The notes under the pieces: model-generated | Seen by the model: only the letters and a program-made list of their open reading frames with translations | Databases searched by the model: none | Told to the model about the DNA's origin: nothing | DNA from: a virus | Length of the DNA: 30,556 nt | IMG/VR virus record: IMGVR_UViG_3300042673_000164 | Coordinates: 1-30,556 of that record | Direction: 5' to 3' (one strand) | Made by a program: the position numbers and the translations under genes | In this document: positions 7,593 to 28,597 of the stretch, piece after piece | Layout of the letters: every line of letters starts with the position of its first letter | Position numbering within the stretch: position 1 is the stretch's first letter

Positions 7593-8114
7593 TCACCAAC
7601 CGCCAGGTGGAGGAGTCCAAGGATCCCAGCCCGCGATCTTGAACAGCACCAAACCTGCCTTGAGGTTCGTCAAAGCATCGAGCAGTGGAGCTTGTTCGCA
7701 GGCAATACCGGCAAGGCAGACCGCAGCTCGGTCGTTGCGTTCAAGGTTGTAGTTGACTCCGTTGATCTGAAGCAGACCCGAATCCGACTTGTTGGTTGCC
7801 TTTGTGTAGCCAGTGATGTTGCAGTTCTTGTCAACAATCGAGGAGCCAATACGGTTCGGGCATCCACCAGATTCTCGGAGGATGATGTGGCCTAGTTTCG
7901 CCCAGGTCTTGCGTGGCCATCCTGCTTCTGCTGCAAGGATGGGGAGCCAGCTGATGTCGCCGTGTTGGAACACGATGCGAGGCTGGTCTTCTTTGAGGTG
8001 TCGTGGGATGCTGGTGTGGGTTGGGTGGGGTTCGGGGGCTTGGGTGGCTTTCGCTACGCCTATGCCGAGGGTGAGTGTGGATATGGCTATCGCTAATGCT
8101 GTGATGCGTTTCAA
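7593..8114 (-). CDS. exported lysozyme/lytic transglycosylase (SLT-like)
   Basis: Translation starts at TTG 8114, with GGAAGG seven bases upstream. Residues 1-26 are a Sec-type signal peptide (KR, then ALAIAISTLTLGIGVA, and an Ala-rich cleavage region). The mature part has the lysozyme-superfamily signature: HIILRESGG with probable catalytic Glu81, and DSGLLQINGVNY at 111-122. An ITNLKAGLVLF-like helix and a GWDPWTP motif end the domain. Four cysteines (85, 98, 133, 139) fit an extracytoplasmic disulfide-bonded enzyme. It would cleave the glycan strand of peptidoglycan. It is distinct from the M15 endolysin at 10.5-11.1 kb. A role in entry, or in lysis without a holin, is possible. Confidence 0.8.
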   Translation of the reverse strand: MKRITALAIAISTLTLGIGVAKATQAPEPHPTHTSIPRHLKEDQPRIVFQHGDISWLPILAAEAGWPRKTWAKLGHIILRESGGCPNRIGSSIVDKNCNITGYTKATNKSDSGLLQINGVNYNLERNDRAAVCLAGIACEQAPLLDALTNLKAGLVLFKIAGWDPWTPPPGGW

Positions 8115-10111: not shown

Positions 10112-10325
10112 TGGTTGCCCGATATCTGGTGATGATTGAGCCGTGAAGTGTTATCCCTCGCGCTTGGAGGGCTTTGATGATTTGCGCGGGTGTGATCGTT
10201 GGGTCGATCAGGGCTTCTAGTAGGTCTTTTCCGTCTTGGTCGTTGAGTCCAGCAACGATTTCGCTGATTCGGTCACGCCTTTTTTGTGGGCTTTCTTGCC
10301 GTATTTCGTTGAGAAACTTGCCCAC
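10098..10325 (-). CDS. small HTH-like protein, 75 aa, GTG start
   Basis: The frame is open to 10394, but GTG at 10325 has AAGGGGA seven bases upstream and gives a 75-residue protein, avoiding most of the overlap with the preceding gene (53 bases remain). The sequence DLLEALIDPTITPAQIIKAL then QARGITLHGSIITRYR fits a small actinophage DNA-binding family in which a second, bent helix recognises DNA. It might be a packaging or regulatory factor. I see no nuclease or ATPase motif. Confidence 0.55.
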   Translation of the reverse strand: MGKFLNEIRQESPQKRRDRISEIVAGLNDQDGKDLLEALIDPTITPAQIIKALQARGITLHGSIITRYRATNVSR

Positions 10326-10527
10326 TGTTTGTCCCCTTGAGATGCCAGTCGATGTGTGAATCCAACTTACTGTCAATCTTGTCCACATTTCCACCGATGG
10401 TGCGAATTGCTTCCATCACCGTTGCGTGGTCATCGTGATTCTCTTTGCGGAACGCCATCATCAGCGTTGTCAACACGGTGCCAACCAAGCCGATCAGAGC
10501 TGCGAGAACGATTCCCCAGTCCATCAT
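10273..10527 (-). CDS. single-span membrane protein in lysis region, 84 aa
   Basis: One N-terminal hydrophobic segment (WGIVLAALIGLVGTVLTTLMMAF, about residues 4-26) is followed by a charged, helical part (ATVMEAIRTIGGNVDKIDSKLDS) and a basic tail. This layout is common in actinophage proteins next to endolysins, where they act as holin-like or antiholin proteins. The start overlaps the endolysin stop (ATGA, with a second ATG three bases on). Its exact role is inferred from context only. Confidence 0.55.
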   Translation of the reverse strand: MMDWGIVLAALIGLVGTVLTTLMMAFRKENHDDHATVMEAIRTIGGNVDKIDSKLDSHIDWHLKGTNSGQVSQRNTARKPTKKA

Positions 10528-11093
10528 GCGGGGAGTGTCGCTTCATAATCGAGGACGGCTTGAGGCATGGCTTGCCCTTCAGTAAACCGAATGTGCCAAC
10601 TTTCAGCCCCAGGCATCTCGACAACCTCATGGCTGAAGCCGAAGCGTTGCTCGTTGGCAAGCAGCCAGTCCATCACTTTCTTGTTGCCGGTGTTCGCAAT
10701 GTCTATAGCGATACCCAGCATGTGACGTGAGCAAGTCTTCGGGTCGTCGTTAGGTGCAGCGAGTGGGGCGTTGCCAGGCTTCAGATACCACTTCTCACCG
10801 TTCCAAGTGCGTGTCGAGGCATTTGGCAGAGGGGTCTTGCTGTACCTGGTCACGAATCCAGCGCGTTGCTGTTCGATGCTGCGGAAAGTGTCGCCGCTGC
10901 TCGTCGGTTTCAAGATGACACCATCAGCCTTGGCGGCTGCAATCATTGCCTCAACTGCACGAGCTGCACAGTGGTGCATCATTCCGCCACAGGACAGTCG
11001 ACGCAACATTGGTGTCGTGATCTCGGACGGCTTCTTGCCTTTGAGATGTTCACAGAACTTGATCGGCACCACAGGCCAAGGCATCTTGGTCAT
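10524..11093 (-). CDS. endolysin, M15/VanY-type L,D- or D,D-carboxypeptidase-like peptidase
   Basis: The 189-residue protein contains the M15 zinc site: SRHMLGIAIDIA with His124 and Asp131, and AESWHIRF with catalytic Glu164 and zinc ligand His167. The SGDTFRS motif at 66-72 precedes them, as in VanY-type enzymes. It would cut stem-peptide bonds in peptidoglycan. No signal peptide or separate wall-binding domain is visible, so it should need a holin. It is flanked by holin-like membrane proteins: the 77-aa one is three bases upstream and the 84-aa one overlaps its stop. Confidence 0.88.
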   Translation of the reverse strand: MTKMPWPVVPIKFCEHLKGKKPSEITTPMLRRLSCGGMMHHCAARAVEAMIAAAKADGVILKPTSSGDTFRSIEQQRAGFVTRYSKTPLPNASTRTWNGEKWYLKPGNAPLAAPNDDPKTCSRHMLGIAIDIANTGNKKVMDWLLANEQRFGFSHEVVEMPGAESWHIRFTEGQAMPQAVLDYEATLPA

Positions 11094-11095
11094 GG

Positions 11096-11329
11096 CTACT
11101 TTTTCTTTGCGCCGAACGCCTCATTGATTTCTTCGGCAGTCAACTGACCATCCAAAGAGGCTTGAGCCAACTTCTGAACGACGGTCGCAACAGCGGCGAA
11201 CCCAGCCAACACAGCCGACTTCCAAATCTCTAGTTCCGGTGCGATCACAGCAGAACCACCAACAATGGCCAAGGCTGACGATAGGAACACAGCGACAATA
11301 CGGCCACCCACATCTTGAATCTTCTTCAT
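11096..11329 (-). CDS. putative holin, 77 aa
   Basis: Two hydrophobic segments are visible: GRIVAVFLSSALAIVGGSAV at about 9-28 and WKSAVLAGFAAVATVVQKL at about 36-54, with a short amphipathic helix (LTAEEINEAFG) and a Lys-rich end (AKKK). Position immediately before the M15 endolysin and this topology suit a class II holin that triggers endolysin release. Its ATG overlaps the stop of the 55-residue membrane protein as ATGA. Confidence 0.65.
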   Translation of the reverse strand: MKKIQDVGGRIVAVFLSSALAIVGGSAVIAPELEIWKSAVLAGFAAVATVVQKLAQASLDGQLTAEEINEAFGAKKK

Positions 11330-11493
11330 GACTTGTCTTCTTTCTTGGTTAGGACACCCACAAGATGAAGAGCCAAAGTCCCAACCGTCACCCAGATGGC
11401 AAGTTGCTGGGTGAACCCAGACAACGTGCCAATCGTGATGATAGATGCGCCGATAGTCCAGAGGAGTGCGTGAATCTCGCCCCAGAATCTCAT
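11326..11493 (-). CDS. two-span micro-membrane protein, 55 aa
   Basis: I translated this frame codon by codon. ATG at 11493 overlaps the stop of the stalk-protein gene as ATGA, and its own TGA overlaps the holin ATG as ATGA, so it is locked into the lysis operon. The protein has two hydrophobic helices (ALLWTIGASIITIGTLSGF and QLAIWVTVGTLALHLVGVL) and a basic-acidic tail (TKKEDKS). Size and topology fit a holin, antiholin or pinholin. It is short enough to be missed by length filters. Confidence 0.7.
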   Translation of the reverse strand: MRFWGEIHALLWTIGASIITIGTLSGFTQQLAIWVTVGTLALHLVGVLTKKEDKS

Positions 11494-12926
11494 TGTCGTC
11501 TCCGTAAAGTAGGCGCAGGACTTGCCGCTAATAGTACCGCACCCAACGCAACTAACGCACGACGCTCAGACACAGGGATGCGCGAATCGAACGGAACATA
11601 ACTATCGGCGAACCCTGAGAAGATATTCAACACCGACTCAAACGCTTTTCTCACGGACGAAGGTGCCGATTGCACCGCAGCCACCACCTCAGCAGCTTGC
11701 TCCACAGACAACTCATCCGTGCTGATCTCACTGAACAACGCCTCAGCCTGGACGCTAGTGATGGCGGCCAAGACGGCGGGGCTGGAGACGAATGTGGCGG
11801 CTTGGTTGGTGTCGAGGTCTTTGGTGATGAGGTCGTCGACTAGGGCAACGATTTGTTCTTCGGTTGCTTCTGAGAGTTGTTCGATGACGGCATCAAACTG
11901 TTCTTCTGTCAGGGCTTCTTTCACGTCTGGTGGGGCTGGGACGGTCTGTGGTGGCTCTGGCGCAGTGTCGGTGATTGGGAGCGTCTCAGGGGCTTGTGGC
12001 GCTTCTGGTGGGCTTGTGTCGTCAGGCAACGGTAGGGTGACGGCTGGTTCTTCTACCGTGTCGGGAGGTTCGGGTGCTGTTTCTGGTGGAATTGGTTGTG
12101 TCTCTGGTGGTGTGGGTGCCGTATCTGGTGGTGCTGGCATCGTTGTGGGTGGTGGCTCAACCGTTGCAGGTGGCTGCGCTACTGGTGGCGATACGGGTTC
12201 TGTGGTGGTCGTGGTTGCAGGCACCGTCGAGGTGGTCGTCGTTGAAGTGGTGGATGTAGATGCTTGAGTGGTTGACGGTTCTAGGGTGGTCGTCGTTGAT
12301 TCTGTTGATGTTGTTTGGGGTAAGGAAGAAGTAGTTGACTCAGCCACAGTCGTTGTGGACACATCGGTTGTGGTTGTGGCCACAGGGCTAGTGCTGAAGG
12401 CTTCGTCCGGCACGATCTCCCAATCACCATCATCAATCTTCCAAGCCAACATCAGGCAGGTGCCACCGCCATTCTCATACATCCACACCTCAAGTGGCAG
12501 ACTGCCAGCCTGAAGGCTGAGATTGCCAGACTGCCAAGCGGAACAACCCTGATCAGTCCATGATCCCCAAGTGTTGCCACCGATAGTTGCTTCACCTCCG
12601 TCATCTGATGCCAACCAGAACTCGATGGTGGTGTGTTCTGGAATCGTGATGAAGCCCGTCAGATGCACCATGAACAGATCATCAGGACAACCCTGAACAG
12701 GTTCACCGTCATAGCTGCGATTGATATTGTTCTCAACCTCACTCGCACACAACGTGTACAGCGTTGTTGACTGCTGAGGAGGTACCTCGTCTATGACGTA
12801 GTAAGAGGCATCCAAGCCTTGAACCACATCAGCACGAGCAACAAACGGAAAGAAACTGAGAACTACAGCAGGGAGAACAATTACAAGGCGGGCGAAACTA
12901 CCCAAGCCAAAGACGCTTCGTCCCAT
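11490..12926 (-). CDS. exported PA14-like protein with Thr/Pro stalk and C-terminal membrane anchor
   Basis: I choose ATG 12926 (478 residues) over the ATG at 12971, because it puts a signal peptide at the very start: a short basic part, LVIVLPAVVLSFFPFV, and cleavage after ARA at residue 32. Residues about 34-175 look PA14-like (GLDASYYVI, then IEFWLASDDGGEATIGG, and later LPLEVWMYENGGGTCLMLAW), a fold used for carbohydrate or surface binding. Residues 178-245 are Thr/Ser-rich and 246-335 Pro/Thr/Glu-rich, making a stalk open to O-glycosylation. A helical domain (336-440) with repeated short helices leads to a hydrophobic segment (456-470) and RRRQ at the end. The protein should face outward from the membrane. 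It lies directly upstream of two holin-like genes and the endolysin. A tail-spike identity is less likely because of the signal peptide. Confidence 0.75.
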   Translation of the reverse strand: MGRSVFGLGSFARLVIVLPAVVLSFFPFVARADVVQGLDASYYVIDEVPPQQSTTLYTLCASEVENNINRSYDGEPVQGCPDDLFMVHLTGFITIPEHTTIEFWLASDDGGEATIGGNTWGSWTDQGCSAWQSGNLSLQAGSLPLEVWMYENGGGTCLMLAWKIDDGDWEIVPDEAFSTSPVATTTTDVSTTTVAESTTSSLPQTTSTESTTTTLEPSTTQASTSTTSTTTTSTVPATTTTTEPVSPPVAQPPATVEPPPTTMPAPPDTAPTPPETQPIPPETAPEPPDTVEEPAVTLPLPDDTSPPEAPQAPETLPITDTAPEPPQTVPAPPDVKEALTEEQFDAVIEQLSEATEEQIVALVDDLITKDLDTNQAATFVSSPAVLAAITSVQAEALFSEISTDELSVEQAAEVVAAVQSAPSSVRKAFESVLNIFSGFADSYVPFDSRIPVSERRALVALGAVLLAASPAPTLRRRQ

Positions 12927-13207
12927 GCGTAATCTTTCCCATCTGTAGGTCGAGGCACAGGGGCTTGCCAATCATAATTGGAATCCAATGACCAAGACTC
13001 AAATGGCTGTGGAACAACAAACACGTCAGCATCAGCATGATAGATAAAACCAACACCAGCGTAAGTCTTGCCTTCAACACCAATAAAAGTTTCTACCCAT
13101 GTTCCTGTGTAGCGTTCAGGGTTCGCTTCTAAGAAGTCTTGTTGAACAACAGCAACACGAGTGACAACATTGTTTGCGTCAATCTGTGCGAAGTATTGTG
13201 CGCTCAT
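12881..13207 (-). CDS. small tail-tip/fibre-associated protein, 108 aa
   Basis: A small protein with an N-terminal YFAQIDANNVVTRVAVVQQD, a central THY-type region (GKTYAGVGFIYHADADVFVVPQP) and a C-terminal aromatic part (YDWQAPVPRPTDGKDYAWDE). Similar small proteins accompany tail fibre genes in environmental phages, where they may help fibre folding or act as adaptors. The start overlaps the fibre gene stop as ATGA. The next gene starts inside its last 46 bases in another frame. Confidence 0.55.
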   Translation of the reverse strand: MSAQYFAQIDANNVVTRVAVVQQDFLEANPERYTGTWVETFIGVEGKTYAGVGFIYHADADVFVVPQPFESWSLDSNYDWQAPVPRPTDGKDYAWDEASLAWVVSPAL

Positions 13208-14259
13208 ACCTTGAACCTCACATAAATAATTCCGCTGCCACCTGCACCACCTGAGCGTGTTCCCGTTGGACCGCCGCCTGAACCGCCGCCACCTGAACCA
13301 CTGTTAGCGGTTGCTGCGCTGCCAGCCGTGTTGTATGCACCGCCTGCACCTCCAACAGACGAGCCGCCTGCACCACCAGTTGAGCCGCCAGTATTGCCAC
13401 CACCACCACCACCACCAGCAGACTTGAAAACTGCTGAACCTGAACCAATGAAAGTTGCGATATCTTTACCTGCTGCACCCGCACCGCCGTTTGTTGCGCC
13501 TGCATTACTTCCAGCAGTACCACTCGCACCACCACCACCGCCACCAGCATAAGGTGATGGGTCATATCCAGTACCACCGACTGAACCATCTGGCAAATCT
13601 AAATTGACATATGAAACGATAGTGACCGCCCCAGCATTTCCACCACTACTTGCGCCAGCACCACCAACCTGACCGATAGCGGCTCCGCCACCGTTGAAAG
13701 TGCCGCCCAAGCCACCACCTAATGCTTTTATACCGTCAATTTGAGATAGCGCGCCAGCAGTTGAAGGATTTGTTGAACCTGCTGCGCCACCTGCACCAAT
13801 ATCTACAGTTGCGTTAGCCGACAAATAAATAGTTTGTTGAACAATAGAAGCACCGCCACCACCGCCGCCGGCAGGAACATTGTTATTGCAGCCACCACCA
13901 CCGCCGCCGCCGCCAACTAGCATCACATCAAATAAGCCCGCTTTGGTAACAGTCAAAGTTCCATCGCTAGTAAACGTCAACAACGTGTAGGCCGTACCGC
14001 CGACAGTAATGCTCGACGAAGTGCCACCTGTTGCAGCACCGTAGCCGGTTGAAAGATCAACCCAAGCCGAACCGTTGTAGACCTGCAACTGTGTTGCTGT
14101 TGAATAAGCAACCATGCCCGCCGAAGGTGTAGGAATCGCAGAACCACGAGCAGCCGTACCAGAGAACACCATCACGGCTTGATCCATGAGGTAGCCCTGA
14201 ACATCGGCTGAAGTCAGCACGTCTCCAGAGTTGAATGTTTTGCGTCCTAAGCCAGCCAT
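13204..14259 (-). CDS. glycine-rich tail fibre protein, 351 aa
   Basis: Residues 1-70 form an attachment module (GRKTFNSGDVLTSADVQGYL, then MVAYSTATQLQVYNGSAWVDL) that is duplicated in the 69-residue gene upstream. A beta-rich link (about 85-115, LLTFTSDGTLTVTKAGLFDV) leads into a Gly/Ala-rich domain (116-340) with runs such as GGGGGGGG and GGAGGAGG, ending in GSGIIYVRFKV. Gly-rich domains of this kind form receptor-binding polyglycine lattices in some phage adhesins, so a host-recognition role is likely. SD AGGAGA lies just ahead of ATG 14259. GC-rich repeats could drive length variation. Confidence 0.75.
   Translation of the reverse strand: MAGLGRKTFNSGDVLTSADVQGYLMDQAVMVFSGTAARGSAIPTPSAGMVAYSTATQLQVYNGSAWVDLSTGYGAATGGTSSSITVGGTAYTLLTFTSDGTLTVTKAGLFDVMLVGGGGGGGGCNNNVPAGGGGGGASIVQQTIYLSANATVDIGAGGAAGSTNPSTAGALSQIDGIKALGGGLGGTFNGGGAAIGQVGGAGASSGGNAGAVTIVSYVNLDLPDGSVGGTGYDPSPYAGGGGGGASGTAGSNAGATNGGAGAAGKDIATFIGSGSAVFKSAGGGGGGGNTGGSTGGAGGSSVGGAGGAYNTAGSAATANSGSGGGGSGGGPTGTRSGGAGGSGIIYVRFKV
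14179..14253. repeat. 75-bp direct repeat, copy A
   Basis: This segment in the 351-aa fibre gene matches 14402-14476 at 74 of 75 positions (only 14221/14444 differ). It encodes the attachment module's first residues. Confidence 0.9.
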
Positions 14260-14272
14260 GATGTCTCCTAAT

Positions 14273-14482
14273 CTACACGCTCACCCAAGCCGTACCGTTG
14301 TACACCTGGAATCCTGTTGCTGTTGAATATGCGCACATGCCTGCTGATGGGCTAGGTATCGCTGAACCTCGTGCAGCTGTACCAGCGAACACCATCACCA
14401 TTTGATCCATGAGGTAGCCCTGAACATCGGCTGAAGTCAGCACATCTCCAGAGTTGAATGTTTTGCGTCCTAAGCCTGGCAT
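14273..14482 (-). CDS. 69-aa fibre attachment-module paralogue
   Basis: The product corresponds to the first 67-70 residues of the 351-residue fibre and then stops, with no Gly-rich part. It differs at only a few positions (for example MVMVFAGTAARGSAIPSPSAG against AVMVFSGTAARGSAIPTPSAG). ATG at 14482 follows GGGAGAATC. It may be a stand-alone fibre base protein, or the remnant of a fibre whose receptor-binding part has been lost. The short gap and near-identical DNA indicate a tandem duplication. Confidence 0.7.
   Translation of the reverse strand: MPGLGRKTFNSGDVLTSADVQGYLMDQMVMVFAGTAARGSAIPSPSAGMCAYSTATGFQVYNGTAWVSV
14402..14476. repeat. 75-bp direct repeat, copy B
   Basis: Partner of 14179-14253 at a fixed offset of 223 bases, inside the 69-aa gene. 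It shows recent duplication or ongoing gene conversion. Confidence 0.9.
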
Positions 14483-17934: not shown

Positions 17935-18639
17935 CTACTCTGATGCCTCCAACCGCTGACGCAAAGCACGAAACTCTGTGATCACGGCATCCCACTTCGC
18001 TTCACCTTCCAAACCAGTCCAACTCCAAACCCTCGGCGGTTCATTCCAGAACTCCTCAGTCAACAAATATGAACCATGAGAACGCGAACGAGGCTGACGC
18101 ACCTCCCGAGACTTGATCGGTCGAGGTTGCTCAACAACATCCCAACTGAAATCAGTATCCAACAACACACCACGACCCTCATGAAACTCAAAGGTTTCAC
18201 CTGGTGCATGCTGAGGCAAATAGAACAACCGTGCAGGGTCTTTCGTCTGCGGGTCACCAACAAGGTTCAACCGTTCATGCAACCCCTGCCACACAGCCCG
18301 CCACAATGAAGCAGGCACACGCTCAGCCAAAGGCAACACCAAGTGATAGTGAGGATCAGAATCACGATGCGAATACGTCGAATACGCAAACCACTCCAAC
18401 CCATCAAGCCTTGCCTCACGGAACGACTCACCGTCCATGTCCACCACCAACGCCTCAATGAACCGCACATTGCGATTCCCACGAGTAGTACTTGGGTAGT
18501 ACTCAACAGGTGACCACAACGCCCCATCAGTCTTGACAGCGTTCTCCTCATGGAAAGCCAACAACTCACGCAGCTGCTCCCAAGACGAAGCCAACGGCTT
18601 CGGATAGATCGACTTCACATTCTTGAACAGAACCGCCAT
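17935..18639 (-). CDS. archaeo-eukaryotic-primase-like protein in tail operon
   Basis: I choose ATG 18639 (234 residues), preceded by GGGAGGTGG, over the upstream ATG at 18693. The protein shows AEP-fold features: VVDMDGE with Asp67 and Asp69, YSTYSHRDSDPHYHLVLPL with His91, 97 and 99, and DPQTKDPARLFYLPQ at about 129-143, all in the order seen in RepB/PriCT-type phage and plasmid primases. An Arg/Pro-rich link and a C-terminal helical part follow. Primases make RNA or DNA primers, but this one sits between a gp10-like protein and the tape measure. It may be a moron acquired from a plasmid or phage, or a protein adopted for another use. Confidence 0.6.
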   Translation of the reverse strand: MAVLFKNVKSIYPKPLASSWEQLRELLAFHEENAVKTDGALWSPVEYYPSTTRGNRNVRFIEALVVDMDGESFREARLDGLEWFAYSTYSHRDSDPHYHLVLPLAERVPASLWRAVWQGLHERLNLVGDPQTKDPARLFYLPQHAPGETFEFHEGRGVLLDTDFSWDVVEQPRPIKSREVRQPRSRSHGSYLLTEEFWNEPPRVWSWTGLEGEAKWDAVITEFRALRQRLEASE

Positions 18640-18689
18640 AACCACCTCCCTACCCATCAGGGTAGCGAACTGGCAGGGAAAGTCAACTA

Positions 18690-19301
18690 TCAATCTGGAA
18701 TGAAAACAATGCCAGTATCGGTCTGACTGTAAACGCCACCCAAAGCCTTACGGGCTGCGGCTTCCTGAGCGCGTTGATCTTTCAAATCGTCGTACACCCG
18801 TTGAATTGCATCTAGGTATTGTTTGGCAATATCAGCTTTGTGCTTCCTGACGGTAGGCCAGAAGAAGTATCCCGATTTGCCTCGATGCCTCAAGAATTGT
18901 TGAGTCTTGGGGCTACGCGCACCACCGAACTCGGCACCGAAGAACACGTCACCCCTTGTCACTTTGCGTTTGCGTTTACGGTTCGGGCGGGACTTTGACA
19001 CAAAGTTTGAACTACTTGAAAGCACTGCTGCTGGTAGCGAATTGAAAGTTCTAGCCTTCATGCCTTTCATCACTTCGGTTGCCTGGTTGCCTCTAGTTAC
19101 TGAAGCAGCTTCAAACTTGGCTGCGACAACTAGAAGATTTGCCACCGCTGTTGAAGCCTTGTTGGCTTCTTTCTTGAATCGTTGATCTGACTTCGCTAGG
19201 TCACGGATGAACTGAGTGATACCAACAATCTCAACGCTGCTGTTCCCAGCAGGTGTGAAACCGACCTGGCCTGCTCGACCGATTGCGTTGTTGATTGCCA
19301 T
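18690..19301 (-). CDS. HK97 gp10-like structural protein
   Basis: The 203-residue protein has an N-terminal VEIVGITQFIRDLAKSDQRF helix pair, a long basic part (SRPNRKRKRKVTRGDVFFGAEF) and a GARSPKTQQFLRHRGKSGYFFWPTVRKHKA region. This fits the HK97-gp10 tail-completion family, which typically shows an E-F-G-x motif and a C-terminal Phe/Pro-rich end. The family sits at the head-tail interface or tail tube, usually before the tail terminator. Here it lies after the chaperone and before the primase-like gene. The start ATG at 19301 has AAGAGG ten bases upstream. Confidence 0.55.
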   Translation of the reverse strand: MAINNAIGRAGQVGFTPAGNSSVEIVGITQFIRDLAKSDQRFKKEANKASTAVANLLVVAAKFEAASVTRGNQATEVMKGMKARTFNSLPAAVLSSSSNFVSKSRPNRKRKRKVTRGDVFFGAEFGGARSPKTQQFLRHRGKSGYFFWPTVRKHKADIAKQYLDAIQRVYDDLKDQRAQEAAARKALGGVYSQTDTGIVFIPD

Positions 19302-21324: not shown

Positions 21325-21981
21325 TTACTTCACCGCAACAGGTGGAAACTCTTGACCGCGAACAATGTCCCCAGCCGCCAACATCGATTGCACCAACTCA
21401 ACATCAGCCTGACCTTGCACATCCGAGTTCAATGACAAAGCCTCAGCATGACGGACATGCACAAACCTTGGCTCCTTATCAAAGCCCACCGAATACCCAT
21501 GCTTGCGAACCTCCAACCACCACACCCAGTCAGCCCAACGGGTTCGACGAAACGGAACATCCAAGACAACCTGCCGACGACATATCATCGAACCACTCAT
21601 CGGATTGTTGCCACTCTCTAGCATCCGAGCGAACCCAGCCTCATTGGCTTGGAACAGGCCACCAGGTCGTTGCTCACCGGTTATCGAAACCACATCCGTG
21701 TCCAACACCAGCCCGTCAGCCCAGTTCGGCAGGATCAGATCGTCAAGCCCGAAGCCCCACACATATTCGGTGGACAAAGCAGCAAAGCCATCATTCCAAG
21801 AATCCCAAAACAACTGAGCCGTGCGCACATTGCGAATGAAATCGGGGACATCCAACGGAACCAACGAAGCAACGACAATCTCATCAGGCTTGGTTGGCAA
21901 CTGCTCGATCATGTTAACAAACTGGCCACCCCACTTCTCCCAATACTCCACAGAAGCACAAGCTGCCACACCGACCGTCAT
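21325..21981 (-). CDS. GT-A-type glycosyltransferase-like protein, 218 aa
   Basis: I place the start at the ATG at 21981, which overlaps the GT17 stop as ATGA, and not at 22035. The sequence opens with a Rossmann-like strand and helix (MTVGVAACASVEYWEK), then DEIVVASLVPLDVP. It contains FGLDDLILPNW, a probable DD-type nucleotide-sugar/metal site, and MICRRQVVLDVPFRRTRWADWVWWLEV, a pattern found after the DxD in family 2-like enzymes. The C-terminus is helical. The donor and acceptor cannot be predicted. It is the last gene of the cassette, with the connector next. Confidence 0.6.
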   Translation of the reverse strand: MTVGVAACASVEYWEKWGGQFVNMIEQLPTKPDEIVVASLVPLDVPDFIRNVRTAQLFWDSWNDGFAALSTEYVWGFGLDDLILPNWADGLVLDTDVVSITGEQRPGGLFQANEAGFARMLESGNNPMSGSMICRRQVVLDVPFRRTRWADWVWWLEVRKHGYSVGFDKEPRFVHVRHAEALSLNSDVQGQADVELVQSMLAAGDIVRGQEFPPVAVK

Positions 21982-22712
21982 CTCTTCACCCGCCACGATT
22001 CGGGATGCAAGTTGTTGCGAATCCACCAAGGCCAATCAGCATCAAGTTCAACCTGGTTCATCACTTCACCATCAATGAACTTCCCCTCAGCGAAACAAGC
22101 CTCAATCATTGTGCGCGTGTCACCCACGTTGTATTCCTGATGAGAGAACTCAGTCAACTTATTCACACACCAATCCACCCCGCCCATCCAACCAAGATGA
22201 AACCCGCCAAAAGCGACAGGCATATTGATCCGATCAAATCTGCGCATCCAATCCAAAGAATCAGCAGCCTTCCCACGAGTGCCACCAATCATCGTGTAAT
22301 GCAACGGGCGTTCCCAATGAACACTGAAAGCAAAGTTTCGCATCATCGCTCGATGCCAACCCTGAGCAAAAGTGTCCAGCATCCGAGGATGCCAAATCTC
22401 ATCCACATCCGACACAGTAATCACATCATCAGGCTGACAACCAAGCCGATCAAACTCAACCAGCAACTGGTCACGAGTTGCCTTCTCAACAGTCCAAGGA
22501 TTGTGATGTCTTGGTGTATCGAAGTCCACCCAATGAATCAGATCAGCCCACTTGGCAAACCGTTCCCGATCTGCACGTTGGCGTGGCTTGCCGGTGAAAG
22601 TCTTGTCACCCTCAATGATCACCATCACATCAACAGTGTCAGCCAACTCCCACAAACGACACTCAAGAACATCAGCCTCACCGTTGTATAGAACACCATC
22701 AAAGACGCGCAT
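21978..22712 (-). CDS. family-17-like glycosyltransferase, 244 aa
   Basis: Translation from the ATG at 22712 (TGATG overlap with the GT2 stop) gives the GT17-type start MRVFDGVLYNGEADVLECRL, followed by VMVIIEGDKTFTGKPR and the metal-binding VITVSDVDEIWHPRML with the D-x-D at 102-104. The middle and C-terminus contain helix-strand pairs and the aromatic motif VHWERPLHYTMIGGTRG. Members transfer a sugar, in eukaryotes N-acetylglucosamine, to a glycan. Bacterial and phage members are less studied. It belongs to a coupled four-gene cassette. Confidence 0.8.
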   Translation of the reverse strand: MRVFDGVLYNGEADVLECRLWELADTVDVMVIIEGDKTFTGKPRQRADRERFAKWADLIHWVDFDTPRHHNPWTVEKATRDQLLVEFDRLGCQPDDVITVSDVDEIWHPRMLDTFAQGWHRAMMRNFAFSVHWERPLHYTMIGGTRGKAADSLDWMRRFDRINMPVAFGGFHLGWMGGVDWCVNKLTEFSHQEYNVGDTRTMIEACFAEGKFIDGEVMNQVELDADWPWWIRNNLHPESWRVKR

Positions 22713-23371
22713 CAATCCCACCCGAGTGTTCGTCGTCTGCCCAAGTCCCAAGCCCCCGCGTCTGGTATTCCTGACCGCCATCGCATGTCGTGGAGATTGC
22801 TGTTGTCTGCGAAGCTGCGGTTGTTCTTCTCGCCAAACGCAGGGTTCGCCTTGAGCGTTGACGAATTATCATGCTCAACTTCAACATCCGAAACCACGAC
22901 AGAGATGTTGAACGCCTTCGCACGTTGCTCATAGTCATTGTCCTCAAAGTAGGCGGGAACGTAACACTCCGAGAATAGACCGATCTTGCTCACCACATCC
23001 TGCCCAAGCCACACACACGACCAGTTCCGCTTCGTGCGAACCACCGTCCCATCGTCGCAGCCATCGTAGAAATGTTCTAGTTGTCCAGGCTTGAACCATG
23101 CGTCAGAGTTCAACAGAATCCAGCCTCGTGCGTGAGGTGTTGATTTGATACCAAGATTCCAAGACGGTGCGACACCGAGATTGGTGGGCATTGACCAGAC
23201 GTGATAGTTCTTGACCAGCCGCCGATCAATCACCCAAGGAAAGTATTGCAGGCTCGACTCGCCGCCGTTGTCAATGATGATCAGATGCTCAACGGGATAG
23301 TCAATGGATTGCAGGCACCGTTCCAGTAGGTCATACCGGTTCAGGACGGGGATGATGATGACAGGCACCAT
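22712..23371 (-). CDS. family-2 glycosyltransferase, 219 aa
   Basis: The N-terminus (VPVIIIPVLNRYDLLERCLQ, then HLIIIDNGG) is the standard GT2 start with Asp34 for nucleotide binding. NLGVAPSWNLGI at 64-75 and ILLNSDAWF with Asp90 complete the donor-binding site. A VPAYFEDNDYEQRA segment (about 138-151) contains the acidic catalytic-base region. It resembles rhamnosyl- or glucosyl-type GT2 enzymes. AAGGAG lies before the ATG at 23371, which overlaps the GT4 gene by 31 bases. Confidence 0.85.
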   Translation of the reverse strand: MVPVIIIPVLNRYDLLERCLQSIDYPVEHLIIIDNGGESSLQYFPWVIDRRLVKNYHVWSMPTNLGVAPSWNLGIKSTPHARGWILLNSDAWFKPGQLEHFYDGCDDGTVVRTKRNWSCVWLGQDVVSKIGLFSECYVPAYFEDNDYEQRAKAFNISVVVSDVEVEHDNSSTLKANPAFGEKNNRSFADNSNLHDMRWRSGIPDAGAWDLGRRRTLGWD

Positions 23372-24519
23372 TCATGCAGCTCCTTCATGATTGGCTTCCA
23401 GTGAGCCTCGTAGACGGTGTCTGCGTTGTACCCTTGGGCAAACTCCACAGCGGTCTTGTCCACGCCTCTCGGAGCCTTGTAGGCCTGTCTCAGGGCATCC
23501 ACAATGGAAGGAACCTGCGGAGTGCAGAACCATGCCTTCTGATGGGCATCCCAGAACGGCTGCACATCGACCTTCCAACCCGACCCAACCAACTCAGGCT
23601 GAGCCGTAAAGTCTGAAACGATCACAGGAACGCCACAAGCCTGAGCCTCAATGACCGCCAACCCGAACCCTTCACCCATCGAGCAAGACAACAACACGTC
23701 AGCTGCCGAATACATCGCAGCCAAAGCCTCTTGCGGGAACCCAATCCGATAGGCGTACTGATCAACGATCTTGTACTGATGTTCCTCAAGCCCAACTGCC
23801 TTGATCAGATCAAGCACACTGATCCCACCAGATGAACCATCACGCTCGACATGCAGATAGATGACTGCGTCAGGATGAGTCTTGGCGAAGATGCCAAACG
23901 CCAACAGGTTCTCTCCAAACGATTTGCGTGAAGGGTTCGCACCCTTGTTCGCTGCATTCATCATGACCACAAACTTGTCTTCAGGTATGCCCATCAGTTC
24001 ACGGCCAGTTGCCTCACCTGTAGAACTCTTGTATTTCTTTGTTGGCTTGAACACAGGTTCAATACCGTGAGGCGCATAGAAGTGTTCAATGCCTGCCTGA
24101 TCTAACATCTGCCCACCGAACTTAGACATCGCTATCGGCTTCACGTTAGGACGCGCACACCAACGCAACACATCCTCTGGACAAGGTGAGTGATCTATTG
24201 GAACCCATGAAGCGATATTCGGACACAGATCAAACGATGGAGATTTGAACACCCACACATCAAACAGAGTCATCAAGATTGGTGGGATGTCTTTGTTGCC
24301 GTTAGCCCAATCCATCCAATGCGCAACCATGATGTCATCGGAATATGGTGCGTTCCCTCGCGGATAAATCTTGACACCGTTCCACATTGATGTTGAACCT
24401 TCCAGTCCATACATTGCGTGGATCGCTACTTCGTGTCCTTCTTGCGTGAGCCTTGGGACGATTTGCGCTGTTTGTTGGCCGTAGCCGGAGTGCGTGAAGG
24501 GCGCGTTGGAATACCACAA
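23341..24519 (-). CDS. family-4 glycosyltransferase (GT-B fold), start uncertain
   Basis: Homology to GT4 begins at LWYSNAPFTHSGYGQQTAQI and includes the C-terminal donor site EGFGLAVIEAQACGVPVIVS with the E-x7-E pair. This supports starting at TTG 24519 (392 residues), although its AGGG ribosome binding site is close. The frame is open to a GTG at 24651 with good AAGGAG; that would add 44 Arg/Pro-rich residues, which look like off-frame translation of the 72-residue ORF that occupies the same DNA. GT4 enzymes use nucleotide sugars to build glycans. Here it is the first enzyme of a four-gene glycosyltransferase cassette downstream of the capsid gene. Confidence 0.8.
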   Translation of the reverse strand: MWYSNAPFTHSGYGQQTAQIVPRLTQEGHEVAIHAMYGLEGSTSMWNGVKIYPRGNAPYSDDIMVAHWMDWANGNKDIPPILMTLFDVWVFKSPSFDLCPNIASWVPIDHSPCPEDVLRWCARPNVKPIAMSKFGGQMLDQAGIEHFYAPHGIEPVFKPTKKYKSSTGEATGRELMGIPEDKFVVMMNAANKGANPSRKSFGENLLAFGIFAKTHPDAVIYLHVERDGSSGGISVLDLIKAVGLEEHQYKIVDQYAYRIGFPQEALAAMYSAADVLLSCSMGEGFGLAVIEAQACGVPVIVSDFTAQPELVGSGWKVDVQPFWDAHQKAWFCTPQVPSIVDALRQAYKAPRGVDKTAVEFAQGYNADTVYEAHWKPIMKELHEWCLSSSSPS

Positions 24520-24644
24520 CGCCCTGCATCGGTTGGGGTTGGTAGGTCTGCCACTTCGGGCAAGTGTGCCACGCCCCGCTGCAAGAGCAGGGTCGCCTCC
24601 AGGTCGGGTAGGTCGATTGGTGTTCCCTTGATGATGACGAGCAT
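24426..24644 (-). CDS. short ORF after capsid gene, 72 aa
   Basis: The ATG at 24644 has AAGGAA seven bases upstream. The start MLVIIKGTPIDLPDLEATLLL with QRGVA resembles small proteins encoded after capsid genes in many actinophages (a G-T-P-I-x-L-P strand and an L-x-x-R-G-V-A helix), followed by a basic, disordered tail. It overlaps the 5' part of the GT4 frame. It may be a real head protein with the GT4 gene starting inside it, or a chance frame. I favour the first view. Confidence 0.5.
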   Translation of the reverse strand: MLVIIKGTPIDLPDLEATLLLQRGVAHLPEVADLPTPTDAGRCGIPTRPSRTPATANKQRKSSQGSRKKDTK

Positions 24645-24686
24645 CTTTCACTTCCTTCTCCTTCGCAGTAGCAGGGTAAATAGAAA

Positions 24687-26062: not shown

Positions 26063-27907
26063 CTAGAAGGGATTCTTCAACAATTCAAGGTGCTTCGCCA
26101 TGATCCCGATGTGGGCTGGCGCAGCCTGTGGTGTTGGTTCTAGTTTGGCAACAGTTTCACGAAGCAAAGCTGCGTGATCTGGTGACAATGTTTGACCTGC
26201 TTCAAGGTTCGTGATCGCTACAGCAAGACGGTCAGCGTCGATGCCGGTACGGGTAGCAAGCGCATCAAACGAACGAACAGAGGCAGATGTGGCCGAGTAG
26301 GCAGGGAAACCTGTGACTACCGAAACTTCATACAGTTTGATCTGACGCAGTTCACGATACTGACCATCATCAGACCACTTGTCGCCACCTGAAGGAACAG
26401 TGAAACCGAACGACATCGAGTCCACGTCTTTGCGTTGCATCAACACGGACAGGTCACGGCCAACAGTAGTGTCAGGCAAACTTGCATCCACCAACAAACC
26501 TTTGGAGTCCTCTGACAGGCGCAGAGTCTTTGCGCGTGTTGTGGCGAGAAGCATGCTTGAATCGTGGTTCATATACATGCGGATATTGTTCCGAGACTTC
26601 AGGGACTTATTGAACGCACCAGGTGCGATCCGCTCAATAAACGGTAAAGGCTCGGAATCAGAATTGAACACTGCGGCATAACCTGTGAACGACATACCGT
26701 CGCCAGACTTGTCTGCTCGCAACTCAAACTCGTTGAACGTGACGCGGCGTGTTTCAACCTGTTCTTCCATGCTTGAAAGACTAACAGGAAATGAACTCAG
26801 CATTCTAGAAGATTTGGGGTGAGCCTTCGGAAGCAGATCGTTGTCGCCGATGTAGGCATCATTCTCTGGTCGACCGTTGCGCAACAAATACAAGAACGCA
26901 TTCACACGGGCATACGCCCACTGATCACGAGTCATACCTGGACGATGCGAAGTTGAATACGCTCCAGCACCACGACGGAACACAGTGCGCAACATCCCAA
27001 CCGTTGCCCGCTTGCCAGGGTTATCCCCAACAGAATCATTGTGTTCATCAGCCTTATTCTTCAAACCTGTCTCAATCGCCTCAGACAACTCAATCGTGCC
27101 ACTACCAGCAGGAGCCTTCGCTGAACCTGGAGGATTCTTCTCAGAACCAACGATCTGATCCTTCTTCGGTGCCGGAGCATCAGCCCGTTCATCTTTGATC
27201 TGCTCAGCCTTCGACATAAACCAATTCATCGCAGGCTCAGGATCAAGCGGGTTGATTCCCCACAAATAGAACGCCACAGCACCGGCACCAGGGAACTCAT
27301 CGTTGTCAGGATCAGAGTTCTTTGGTGCATCAAGATCGACTAGATGTCTGGCACCCCAAGCGTTCGCACGAATCACCTTGTCTTCTGAGATGTCGCCACG
27401 CGACATGTCACGAGCCTCACGAACAGTGCGCTCAACCAAACCGTCACCAGCCAAGCCTTGACCGTAGTAGTCCAAACCTTTGCGAGCTGCGTTGCGAATG
27501 TAGGTTGGAAGATTGAGTGCAACTTGACGCACCTCATCTTCCATCTCGTCTTCGTCTTCTTGTTCACGAGGTTGCCAGGCGTTGCAATAGAAACCGCCAT
27601 CAACATACGCATCCCAACGCTCACACCAAGCCTTCAGATTGTCGCCCTCACCTTGAACATCATCTTCGTTATAGAACTCGCAGTTCCCACATGCTCGACC
27701 TTCAGGAACATCAGGTGACAACGCAGGCCGATAGTTGTCCGGCAACGCACGTTCACCACCAGGTTCCATATCTTCAGCAATCGACACAGCAACCATCTGA
27801 TCAATCGCATCCTGCTTCGTCGTATGGCAACCAATGACCTCACCATCTTCCTTGATGGTTGCCCAACCTGCGCAGCCCTCCGCTTTGTCTGTAATGAAAT
27901 AAGGCAT
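26063..27907 (-). CDS. multidomain capsid maturation protease (HK97 prohead protease, S78) with N-terminal extensions
   Basis: The 614-residue protein has at least four parts. Residues 1-45 are a small WATIKEDGEVIGCHTTKQDA domain. Residues 70-112 contain Cys73, 76, 95 and 108 with the RACGNCEFY start, a metal- or cluster-binding pattern. Residues 125-235 (RNAARKGLDYYGQGLAGDGL, DLDAPKNSDPDNDEFPGAG, WGINP) and 275-365 (EAIETGLKNKADEHN, AYARVNAFLYLLRNGRP) resemble domains fused to proteases in other phages. The prohead protease is at about 385-545: GYAAVFNS, MYMNHDSS with His448, and SMSFGF with Ser499. The enzyme cleaves the capsid protein's delta domain during maturation. An internal start at Met380 could yield a protease-only product. 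The ATG at 27907 overlaps the upstream stop as TGATG. Confidence 0.88.
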   Translation of the reverse strand: MPYFITDKAEGCAGWATIKEDGEVIGCHTTKQDAIDQMVAVSIAEDMEPGGERALPDNYRPALSPDVPEGRACGNCEFYNEDDVQGEGDNLKAWCERWDAYVDGGFYCNAWQPREQEDEDEMEDEVRQVALNLPTYIRNAARKGLDYYGQGLAGDGLVERTVREARDMSRGDISEDKVIRANAWGARHLVDLDAPKNSDPDNDEFPGAGAVAFYLWGINPLDPEPAMNWFMSKAEQIKDERADAPAPKKDQIVGSEKNPPGSAKAPAGSGTIELSEAIETGLKNKADEHNDSVGDNPGKRATVGMLRTVFRRGAGAYSTSHRPGMTRDQWAYARVNAFLYLLRNGRPENDAYIGDNDLLPKAHPKSSRMLSSFPVSLSSMEEQVETRRVTFNEFELRADKSGDGMSFTGYAAVFNSDSEPLPFIERIAPGAFNKSLKSRNNIRMYMNHDSSMLLATTRAKTLRLSEDSKGLLVDASLPDTTVGRDLSVLMQRKDVDSMSFGFTVPSGGDKWSDDGQYRELRQIKLYEVSVVTGFPAYSATSASVRSFDALATRTGIDADRLAVAITNLEAGQTLSPDHAALLRETVAKLEPTPQAAPAHIGIMAKHLELLKNPF

Positions 27908-28590
27908 CAGATCAACAACAATACTTCAGCATCGTCATCCAAGATACTGAATGTGATCAAACCTGTCGCAGCGATAACCGCACCACCCAACATGCTCGAC
28001 CCGACAGCAGACACCAGACGTGGCTTCTTTGGTTCATTGATCTGAATCGGAATCTCTTTGGGCTTCGGTCTTGGCTTCGGTCTTGGTTGCCTGTAGGGCT
28101 GATAGCCAACACCGTCATCAACCGGTGGAGGCGCAGGAGGCGAAGCCTGTGCTGTAGCAGCTGCATCCAACCCACCAAGACTGGCCGCAGCGACCACATC
28201 TTTCTTGACCTTCGTTGTGGCAGTTGCGTCAAGCCCACCCAAAGTTGCCTCAGCAATCACATCCTTGGCAACCTTCGTTGTGGCCGATGCGTCAAGCCCG
28301 CCCAAACTCGCCGCCGCAACAGCAGCCTTCCTTGTCTTAGCCTGCGCAGCCGCAACCAAACCACCGAACGCCGACGAAGCCACCGCCACCTTGACCACAG
28401 TTGCAGTGGCCGTACTTGCAAGGCCACCAAGAGTCGATGCCGCAGTTGCGACAGTTAGAAACTCACCACCATCCAACACCCTTGTCCCATCAAGGGCTGA
28501 CGAGTCAAGAATGAACGCGGCACCACCACCAAGGCCGAAGCCTGTGTTGTCAAGTGTGGTTGAGTCAAGAACAAACCGTTGAACGGCCAT
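27907..28590 (-). CDS. repeat-containing structural protein with C-terminal hydrophobic segment
   Basis: I use ATG 28590 (227 residues) and not the GTG at 28593. Residues 6-40 have two related motifs, FVLDSTTLDNTG and FILDSSALDGTRVLDG. Five 21-residue units with the core [ST]LGGLxAxA follow (about 48-149). A Pro/Lys-rich segment (RQPRPKPRPKPKEIP, about 167-182) leads to a possible transmembrane helix (SAVGSSMLGGAVIAATGLIT) and an acidic-hydrophobic end (ILDDDAEVLLLI). No family is recognised. The place between two head genes suggests a virion or assembly protein. The gene is coupled to the protease by TGATG. Confidence 0.6.
   Translation of the reverse strand: MAVQRFVLDSTTLDNTGFGLGGGAAFILDSSALDGTRVLDGGEFLTVATAASTLGGLASTATATVVKVAVASSAFGGLVAAAQAKTRKAAVAAASLGGLDASATTKVAKDVIAEATLGGLDATATTKVKKDVVAAASLGGLDAAATAQASPPAPPPVDDGVGYQPYRQPRPKPRPKPKEIPIQINEPKKPRLVSAVGSSMLGGAVIAATGLITFSILDDDAEVLLLI
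28144..28446. repeat. five degenerate 63-bp coding repeats
   Basis: LGG or FGG motifs recur exactly every 21 residues, five times, in the repeat protein. The third to fifth units are the most similar (SLGGLDASATTKVAKDV, TLGGLDATATTKVKKDV, SLGGLDAAATAQ). The repeat could change length by slippage or recombination. Confidence 0.85.
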
Positions 28591-28597
28591 CACAAAC

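Follow-up and report, generated by a model that had tools for sequence, protein, structure and literature searches.

A family of membrane-tethered stalk proteins with exchangeable lectin-type heads, putatively displayed on infected cells by freshwater actinophages

Freshwater actinophages of ~30 kb to >200 kb probably share, on balance, a previously undescribed system in which a two-component membrane chassis presents exchangeable lectins, unrelated in fold, on the surface of the infected cell and would thus remodel host sugar-binding during infection. The chassis consists of a helical base with a hydrophobic tail and a small two-span protein (TM55), the two forming a single polypeptide in large phages. 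Lectin-like domains on phage virions are already known; the family described here appears to place lectins on the infected cell itself, tethered to the membrane and encoded beside the lysis genes, in freshwater actinophages carrying whiB. The exchangeable heads, the obligate or fused TM55 partner and a headless mini form of the protein all go beyond the original prediction made from this DNA.

Genomic setting of the stalk gene

The window, that is, the whole stretch of DNA analysed here, is an IMG/VR virus record of 30,556 bases from a tailed phage. Its genes follow the order portal, prohead protease, HK97-type capsid protein, glycosyltransferases, tail genes, fibres, stalk gene, lysis genes and early genes, the last including whiB, a gene which serves to mark actinophages (PMC6802176). 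Among named phages, the closest capsid protein is that of phiPsal1, a phage of Pontimonas salivibrio (42% identity), and the source virus is a freshwater actinobacteria virus. The gene immediately upstream of the stalk gene has a counterpart in phiPsal1:

12881..13207, minus strand: 108-aa protein (phrog_7759), the final 46 bases of which overlap the stalk gene; found at the equivalent place in phiPsal1

In phiPsal1, the 108-aa upstream gene is followed directly by an M23 endolysin, with no stalk gene, and neither the profile of the base nor that of TM55 matches this phage. Since phiPsal1 has the flanking genes without the stalk gene, the stalk gene and TM55 look like a two-gene module inserted between the fibre and lysis genes.

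Domain organization and conservation of the stalk protein

The stalk gene is encoded on the minus strand, the plus-strand reading of the stretch being full of stops, and starts with the ATG at 12926, with GGGAAAGA ~6–7 nt upstream. Scans for RNA folding in the start region, promoters and terminators returned nothing above chance. The predicted succession of a signal peptide, a PA14-like domain, a stalk rich first in T/S and then in P, a helical domain and a hydrophobic tail ending in RRRQ was borne out by sequence pattern, Pfam, AlphaFold and composition:

11490..12926, minus strand: whole stalk gene, 478 aa, stop included in the span; predicted exported, tail-anchored PA14 stalk protein, based on translation, relatives and purifying selection
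12831..12926, minus strand: signal peptide, residues 1–32 (MGRSVFGLGSFARLVIVLPAVVLSFFPFVARA, then cleavage before D), by a pattern conserved among relatives
12387..12830, minus strand: PA14 head, residues 33–180, by Pfam, PDB profile, AlphaFold and fold match; Cys 60, 80, 128 and 157; DDGG at 108–111
11916..12386, minus strand: T/S- then P-rich stalk, residues 181–337 (157 residues), by composition; disordered in the AlphaFold model
11595..11915, minus strand: helical C-terminal domain, the base common to the family, residues 338–444, by alignment, AlphaFold, >500 relatives and dN/dS
11493..11594, minus strand: hydrophobic tail, flanked by RR on its N-terminal and by RRRQ on its C-terminal side, by hydropathy and basic end; contains a 17-residue helix (452–468) and is fused to a TM domain in large phages

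The signal peptide was called from the sequence pattern (n-region, hydrophobic core, A-x-A then D/E); it ends with A-R-A before D in the window protein and, for instance, with RWLIFAPVAILALFAPQANA before E in relatives. The strict pattern fits 116 of 149 distinct relatives, and the inspected non-fitting ones have V-S-A or similar. Pfam PF07691 matched the window protein with 26.1 bits in one run (cut-off 24) and with 22.3 bits (E 1.2e-4), just below the cut-off, in the other. The AlphaFold model of the head (pLDDT ~95) agrees with the predicted PA14 fold, its nearest solved structures being the PA14 domain of RsgI3 (Z 18), the MpAFP lectin (Z 17) and the Flo/Epa adhesins (Z ~13); consistently, the family profile matched the RsgI3 PA14 domains in the PDB at 1.5e-13. 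The DDGG motif, invariant in 56 aligned relatives, occupies a position which we take to be the calcium/sugar site of lectin-type PA14 domains, and the modelled head suggests a sugar-binding type, although a lectin fold alone does not prove sugar binding.

The stalk (37% T+S, 24% P) contains a single basic residue. In the model, the helical domain spans residues 340–432, with pLDDT of ~90 up to residue 432, and residues 452–468 form the last helix. A hydrophobic tail with at least 2 K/R among the last 5 residues is present in all 154 distinct relatives and is a probable membrane span with its basic end inside, although its hydrophobicity is only moderate (mean 1.70). The LPXTG motif of sortase substrates is absent before the tail from the 60 commonest tail sequences listed.

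A scan with the whole protein yielded 237 relatives, and a scan of IMG/VR with the C-terminal domain at least 512. Across the family, the stalks measure 80–292 residues and consist of 62% T/S/P. The stalk proteins form a real, widespread family, and their dN/dS values (head 0.17, base 0.19, stalk 0.50) argue for purifying selection with a loosely constrained spacer. In 154 distinct proteins, cysteines are confined to the heads and absent from the stalk and C-terminal domain, almost every PA14 or jelly-roll head having 4 and the FN3 and short heads having 2. The mini form, which lacks stalk and base, was tallied separately. The family is known from metagenomic fragments and redundant contigs, and its description rests on sequence and structure prediction. 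Ordinary tblastn found no relative among 50,697 phage records, which reflects a limit of sensitivity, because a profile search later recovered a relative in phage DSL-LC01. One scan of genome contigs with the PA14 head, bearing on cellular origin, gave only 2 weak Lachnospiraceae matches. The bases of 3 relatives (L261, L262 and L256) show weak matches to MgtE_N/FliG-type helical repeats, with E values down to 5.6e-11 (L261), which hints at how the base may fold.

A two-span partner, adjacent or fused

Directly downstream of the stalk gene, and overlapping it by ATGA in the window, lies the gene for the partner protein:

11326..11493, minus strand: TM55, 55-aa two-span protein with an invariant TLSG; phrog_29041, with no function assigned; fused to the stalk protein elsewhere

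In all 125 loci that were fetched by the stalk protein and had room for it, the following gene is TM55 (37–63 aa, two-span, TLSG), mostly with an overlap of 1–4 nt. TM55 is always present over 207 loci, ~80 of which were fetched by TM55 itself. The reverse search considered the closest 80 of at least 522 TM55 loci, which are not a random sample; among the 78 with a readable upstream ORF, the base is found upstream in 72 and a mini form in 6. The mini form, of ~70–80 aa, takes the place of the stalk protein in these 6 loci and consists of a signal-like N-terminus, a short ectodomain with cysteines and a tail, which is identical at 11 of 31 positions to one stalk tail. It keeps TM55, hol77 (the 77-aa holin-like protein described below) and M15 beside it but has neither lectin nor stalk, which suggests that the core task of the tail and TM55 may need no glycan.

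A strong indication of a physical association comes from the Actinomycetia phage DSL-LC01, a metagenome-assembled genome of 129 kb (PMC10611076), in which the profile found the family as a 944-aa hypothetical protein. This single chain comprises, in order, a signal peptide, 3 heads on poly-T stalks, the base (E 3.5e-30), the tail, a charged linker and a TM55 domain (E 8.7e-19). A further scan identified 34 loci, on contigs of up to 210 kb, in which base and TM55 are encoded by one ORF (33 loci) or adjacent to each other (1 locus). Given that 2 genes which are otherwise always adjacent are fused into one polypeptide, we strongly infer that the stalk protein and TM55 act as one complex. The fusion also makes a topology likely in which the heads are outside, the tail runs out-to-in, the charged linker is inside and TM55 runs in-out-in. 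It further turns physical association of the two proteins into a direct, testable claim. In one locus (L276:5515-5728), TM55 is directly followed by a phage-encoded sortase-type surface protein of 71 aa, which has LPNTG, one span and a basic tail and lies beside the stalk gene.

Exchangeable heads on a common base

The same base and tail carry a PA14 head, a jelly-roll head (FGVWEF/YSQS), an FN3 head or a short WTC (disulfide) head, and PA14 and jelly-roll heads are both found on bases that are at least 90% identical. The AlphaFold model of the jelly-roll head (pLDDT 87) matched the C-terminal domain of VesC (Z 11.8), followed by many carbohydrate-binding modules and a phage tailspike (Z 7.5–9); this is suggestive of carbohydrate binding in a modelled fold that is a common one. 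Heads of the large phages exceeded the Pfam cut-offs for Lectin_L-type (E 5.5e-43), SUEL_Lectin (1.5e-7), Lectin_C (1.5e-5) and PA14 (3.8e-8), and in 2 loci (L262 and L274) the lectin-family profiles match the same ORF as the base and TM55. Overall, relatives carry at least 4 different kinds of lectin head on a common base. The heads represent ready-made lectins, the ligands of which would reveal surface sugars of hosts that are difficult to grow.

Two ideas on the heads were rejected. Matching of the head to the phage's own fibres was assessed by comparing fibre similarity between same-head and different-head loci with similar bases, and showed no significant link, 90 of 500 permutations reaching the observed difference. 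Recruitment of the heads from fibre genes of the same loci is not borne out either, the heads occurring only in stalk proteins and pieces thereof. One contig (L120:4935-5135) contains, at its end, a 201-nt inverted copy of part of the PA14 head with 94.5% identity, which is probably a contig-end chimera but may be an invertible or silent head cassette.

The position of the stalk gene after the fibre genes and the presence of PA14 domains in other phage structural proteins would fit a tail or fibre protein of the virion with an uncleaved signal-like N-terminus. However, the canonical cleavable signal peptide is conserved across the different heads, cysteines are restricted to the heads, the membrane tail is fused to a two-span domain, and none of the heads recurs in fibre genes of these loci. 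The tail-protein reading was rejected on the signal peptide, the cysteine pattern and the membrane fusion, and we regard it as highly improbable. These same features, together with the basic tail end, uphold the original view of a membrane-tethered surface protein of the infected cell, rather than a normal tail protein.

Association with the lysis genes

Downstream of TM55, the window encodes the following genes, the first two in the order originally predicted:

11096..11329, minus strand: hol77, 77-aa two-span holin-like protein with an ATGA overlap with TM55, by PHROG and position
10524..11093, minus strand: M15 (VanY) peptidase, 189 aa, endolysin candidate (Pfam E 1.9e-11)
10273..10527, minus strand: 84-aa holin-like protein with one N-terminal span and a charged C-terminal part, following M15

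All genes from the stalk gene to that of the 84-aa protein overlap or abut. The holin label of hol77 stems from a weak PHROG match (E 0.003), its strong PHROG match being named "nuclease", which is unhelpful. The prediction that the stalk gene heads a lysis cassette holds for most loci, with a hol77-like gene downstream in 182 of 191 and M15 in 140 of 158, but not for all: the invariable neighbour is TM55, M15 is absent nearby in 18 of 158 loci, and the fused gene of DSL-LC01 lies on the strand opposite its hol77-like gene. In one clade, the terminase takes the place of the lysis genes, and 5 of its contigs have no VanY match. In other fused genes, hol77 follows at +300 and M15 at +490.

This neighbourhood raises the possibility that the tail and TM55 form a holin/antiholin-like or lysis-timing membrane complex, with the stalked lectin sensing or gripping glycans of the wall or outside, comparable to sensing by T4 RI or to corynephage LysZ. 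The two-span partner is obligate and fused, the genes form an operon that runs on into hol77 and M15 through 4-nt overlaps, the mini form retains TM55, hol77 and M15, and some fused genes sit directly before hol77 and M15, all in agreement with such a role; assignment of TM55 to the holin/antiholin class would be based on its two spans and cassette position, its profile match being to phrog_29041 alone, without assigned function. On the other hand, hol77 and the 84-aa one-span protein already resemble the LysF1a/LysF1b pair, several unrelated lectins would be odd as lysis sensors, and freshwater monoderm hosts would burst by osmosis after wall cutting; the loci without M15 and the opposite strand in DSL-LC01 also speak against it. 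We consider a lysis module the main rival to the explanation given below, yet an unlikely one; if it were true, the stalk protein would be a lysis regulator reaching outside the wall.

LysZ provides an actinophage precedent for an envelope protein linked to lipoglycan and lysis: it is a corynephage lysis-region protein with one span, N-in/C-out, the outside domain of which is proposed to meet lipid-anchored glycans (PMC13056207). Relief of the lysis defect in lipoglycan mutants would characterise this class. This precedent, and the location before a holin-like gene, could also favour the originally suggested spanin-like or envelope-disrupting lysis function. By contrast with LysZ (177 aa, N-in/C-out), with which the comparison is by description, the stalk protein is predicted to be oriented N-out/C-in, opposite to LysZ and spanins alike, and combines a signal peptide and stalk with lectin heads and a partner protein. 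It corresponds neither to an inner-membrane N-in/C-out coiled coil nor to an outer-membrane lipoprotein pair, its stalk being disordered in the model with no coiled coil, and its hosts are not known to have a second membrane. With a PA14 head in addition, the spanin-like proposal has very little probability and found no support.

Lectin display and its possible purpose

Taken together, the features above support well, as far as sequences can tell, a putative lectin display complex that is made late and tethered in the membrane of the infected cell; the explanation as a whole, including the purpose proposed below, falls just short of an even chance in our estimate. The stalk protein would be exported by Sec with its head outside, as strongly suggested by the conserved signal peptide and the head-confined cysteines. 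The tail would cross the membrane out-to-in, and TM55 (inside-outside-inside) would bind the tail and base to give one membrane complex, both steps being strong inferences. The stalk of ~157 residues, which if extended would measure up to ~50 nm by our own estimate of ~0.3 nm per residue, would take the lectin across the wall; O-mannosylation of the stalk by the host is probable, judging from general knowledge of actinobacteria. Production would be late, together with the fibre and lysis genes, considering that fibres precede the gene and the holin-like and M15 genes follow it. Glycan binding is proposed because the PA14 head is nearest to RsgI3, MpAFP and Flo/Epa, the jelly roll lies near carbohydrate-binding modules, and relatives match lectin profiles.

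As the purpose of this display, we tentatively propose masking: the heads would bind and cover the host's own surface glycans, so that neither other virions nor the phage's own progeny, at and after lysis, would attach to the dying cell and its remains, comparable to lytic conversion by T5 Llp but acting through surface lectins. We prefer this purpose, while holding it at less than even confidence, on account of the lectin heads, a stalk long enough to span the wall, late expression that would fit protection of the progeny, and the precedent of T5 Llp. Against it, head type and the hypervariable fibre genes vary independently, whereas a link between them might be expected if the phage masked its own receptor; the lectin-free mini form and the only moderate hydrophobicity of the tail also weigh against the overall explanation. 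If masking proves true, re-adsorption or superinfection would be prevented in Gram-positive hosts by a means that is new.

The displayed lectins could instead make infected cells stick to particles or to cells nearby, so that progeny would be more likely to meet new hosts, as might be expected from a lectin-stalk-anchor anatomy like that of Flo/Epa adhesins and from the multi-lectin arrays of large phages. Yet late production would be of little use for this purpose unless lysis were delayed, and the mini form is headless, making adhesion a rather improbable explanation.

Comparison with known systems

No relevant match to known anti-phage or exclusion profiles (PADLOC, NCBIfam and PHROG) was obtained for the stalk protein, TM55 matching phrog_29041 only, and neither the base nor the system is named by any match in Pfam, NCBIfam, PHROGs or PADLOC. 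Full-length relatives are present in BFVD/UniProt (e.g., A0A6J5SZ50) as PA14 or uncharacterised proteins of uncultured phages with no function given, and the phrog_29041 and UniProt entries make no mention of the pairing, the fusion or the exchange of heads. A literature search found no paper describing the stalk protein or such an arrangement in any phage.

For masking, a close likeness is to T5 Llp and Cor, small exported and anchored phage proteins with genes next to the receptor-binding gene, which act in superinfection exclusion and lytic conversion. Llp has an intramolecular disulfide (PMC9586334), and the mini form could hold one as well. Compared by description, Llp and Cor are lipoproteins of the outer membrane that target FhuA from the periplasmic side, whereas the system here combines a tail-anchored lectin-stalk protein with a two-span partner; in place of a lipobox, the stalk protein has an A-x-A cleavage site before D/E and a C-terminal tail. 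Fungal Flo/Epa and bacterial MpAFP share the PA14 lectin head (fold match Z 13–17), the T/S-rich stalk and the C-terminal anchor, but they belong to cells instead of phages, as GPI or cell-wall/RTX systems, and have no two-span partner. The closest solved PA14 domains (6qdi and 6qe7; Z 18) belong to RsgI-type anti-sigma factors of Clostridium, in which a sensor of polysaccharides outside the cell is linked to a membrane protein; unlike these, the stalk protein has no anti-sigma domain or cytoplasmic effector. The anatomy resembles that of fungal adhesins, but we found no known kind under which a phage system could be filed that pairs exchangeable lectins with a membrane partner fused to them.

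Additional features of the window

Several other loci of the window are of note. Glycosyltransferase genes (GT1, GT2 and GT17-type, and one with no Pfam match) lie between the capsid and neck genes (21325-24651); phiPsal1 also has 2 glycosyltransferases at the corresponding place, yet no stalk gene. Two adjacent fibre genes (13204-14482) share a nearly identical 60-residue N-terminal anchor (MAGLGRKTFNSGDVLTSADVQGYLMDQ). A primase/replication-like gene with no Pfam match (17935-18693) is located within the tail block, between tail genes and the tape measure. An exported protein with a weak SLT lysozyme-like match (7593-8114), distant from the M15 endolysin, is a possible second muralytic enzyme. 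Finally, a gene between the portal-side gene and the prohead protease (27907-28593), with no Pfam match, encodes 4 to 5 repeats of ~22 residues (AAASLGGLDAxATTKVxKD).
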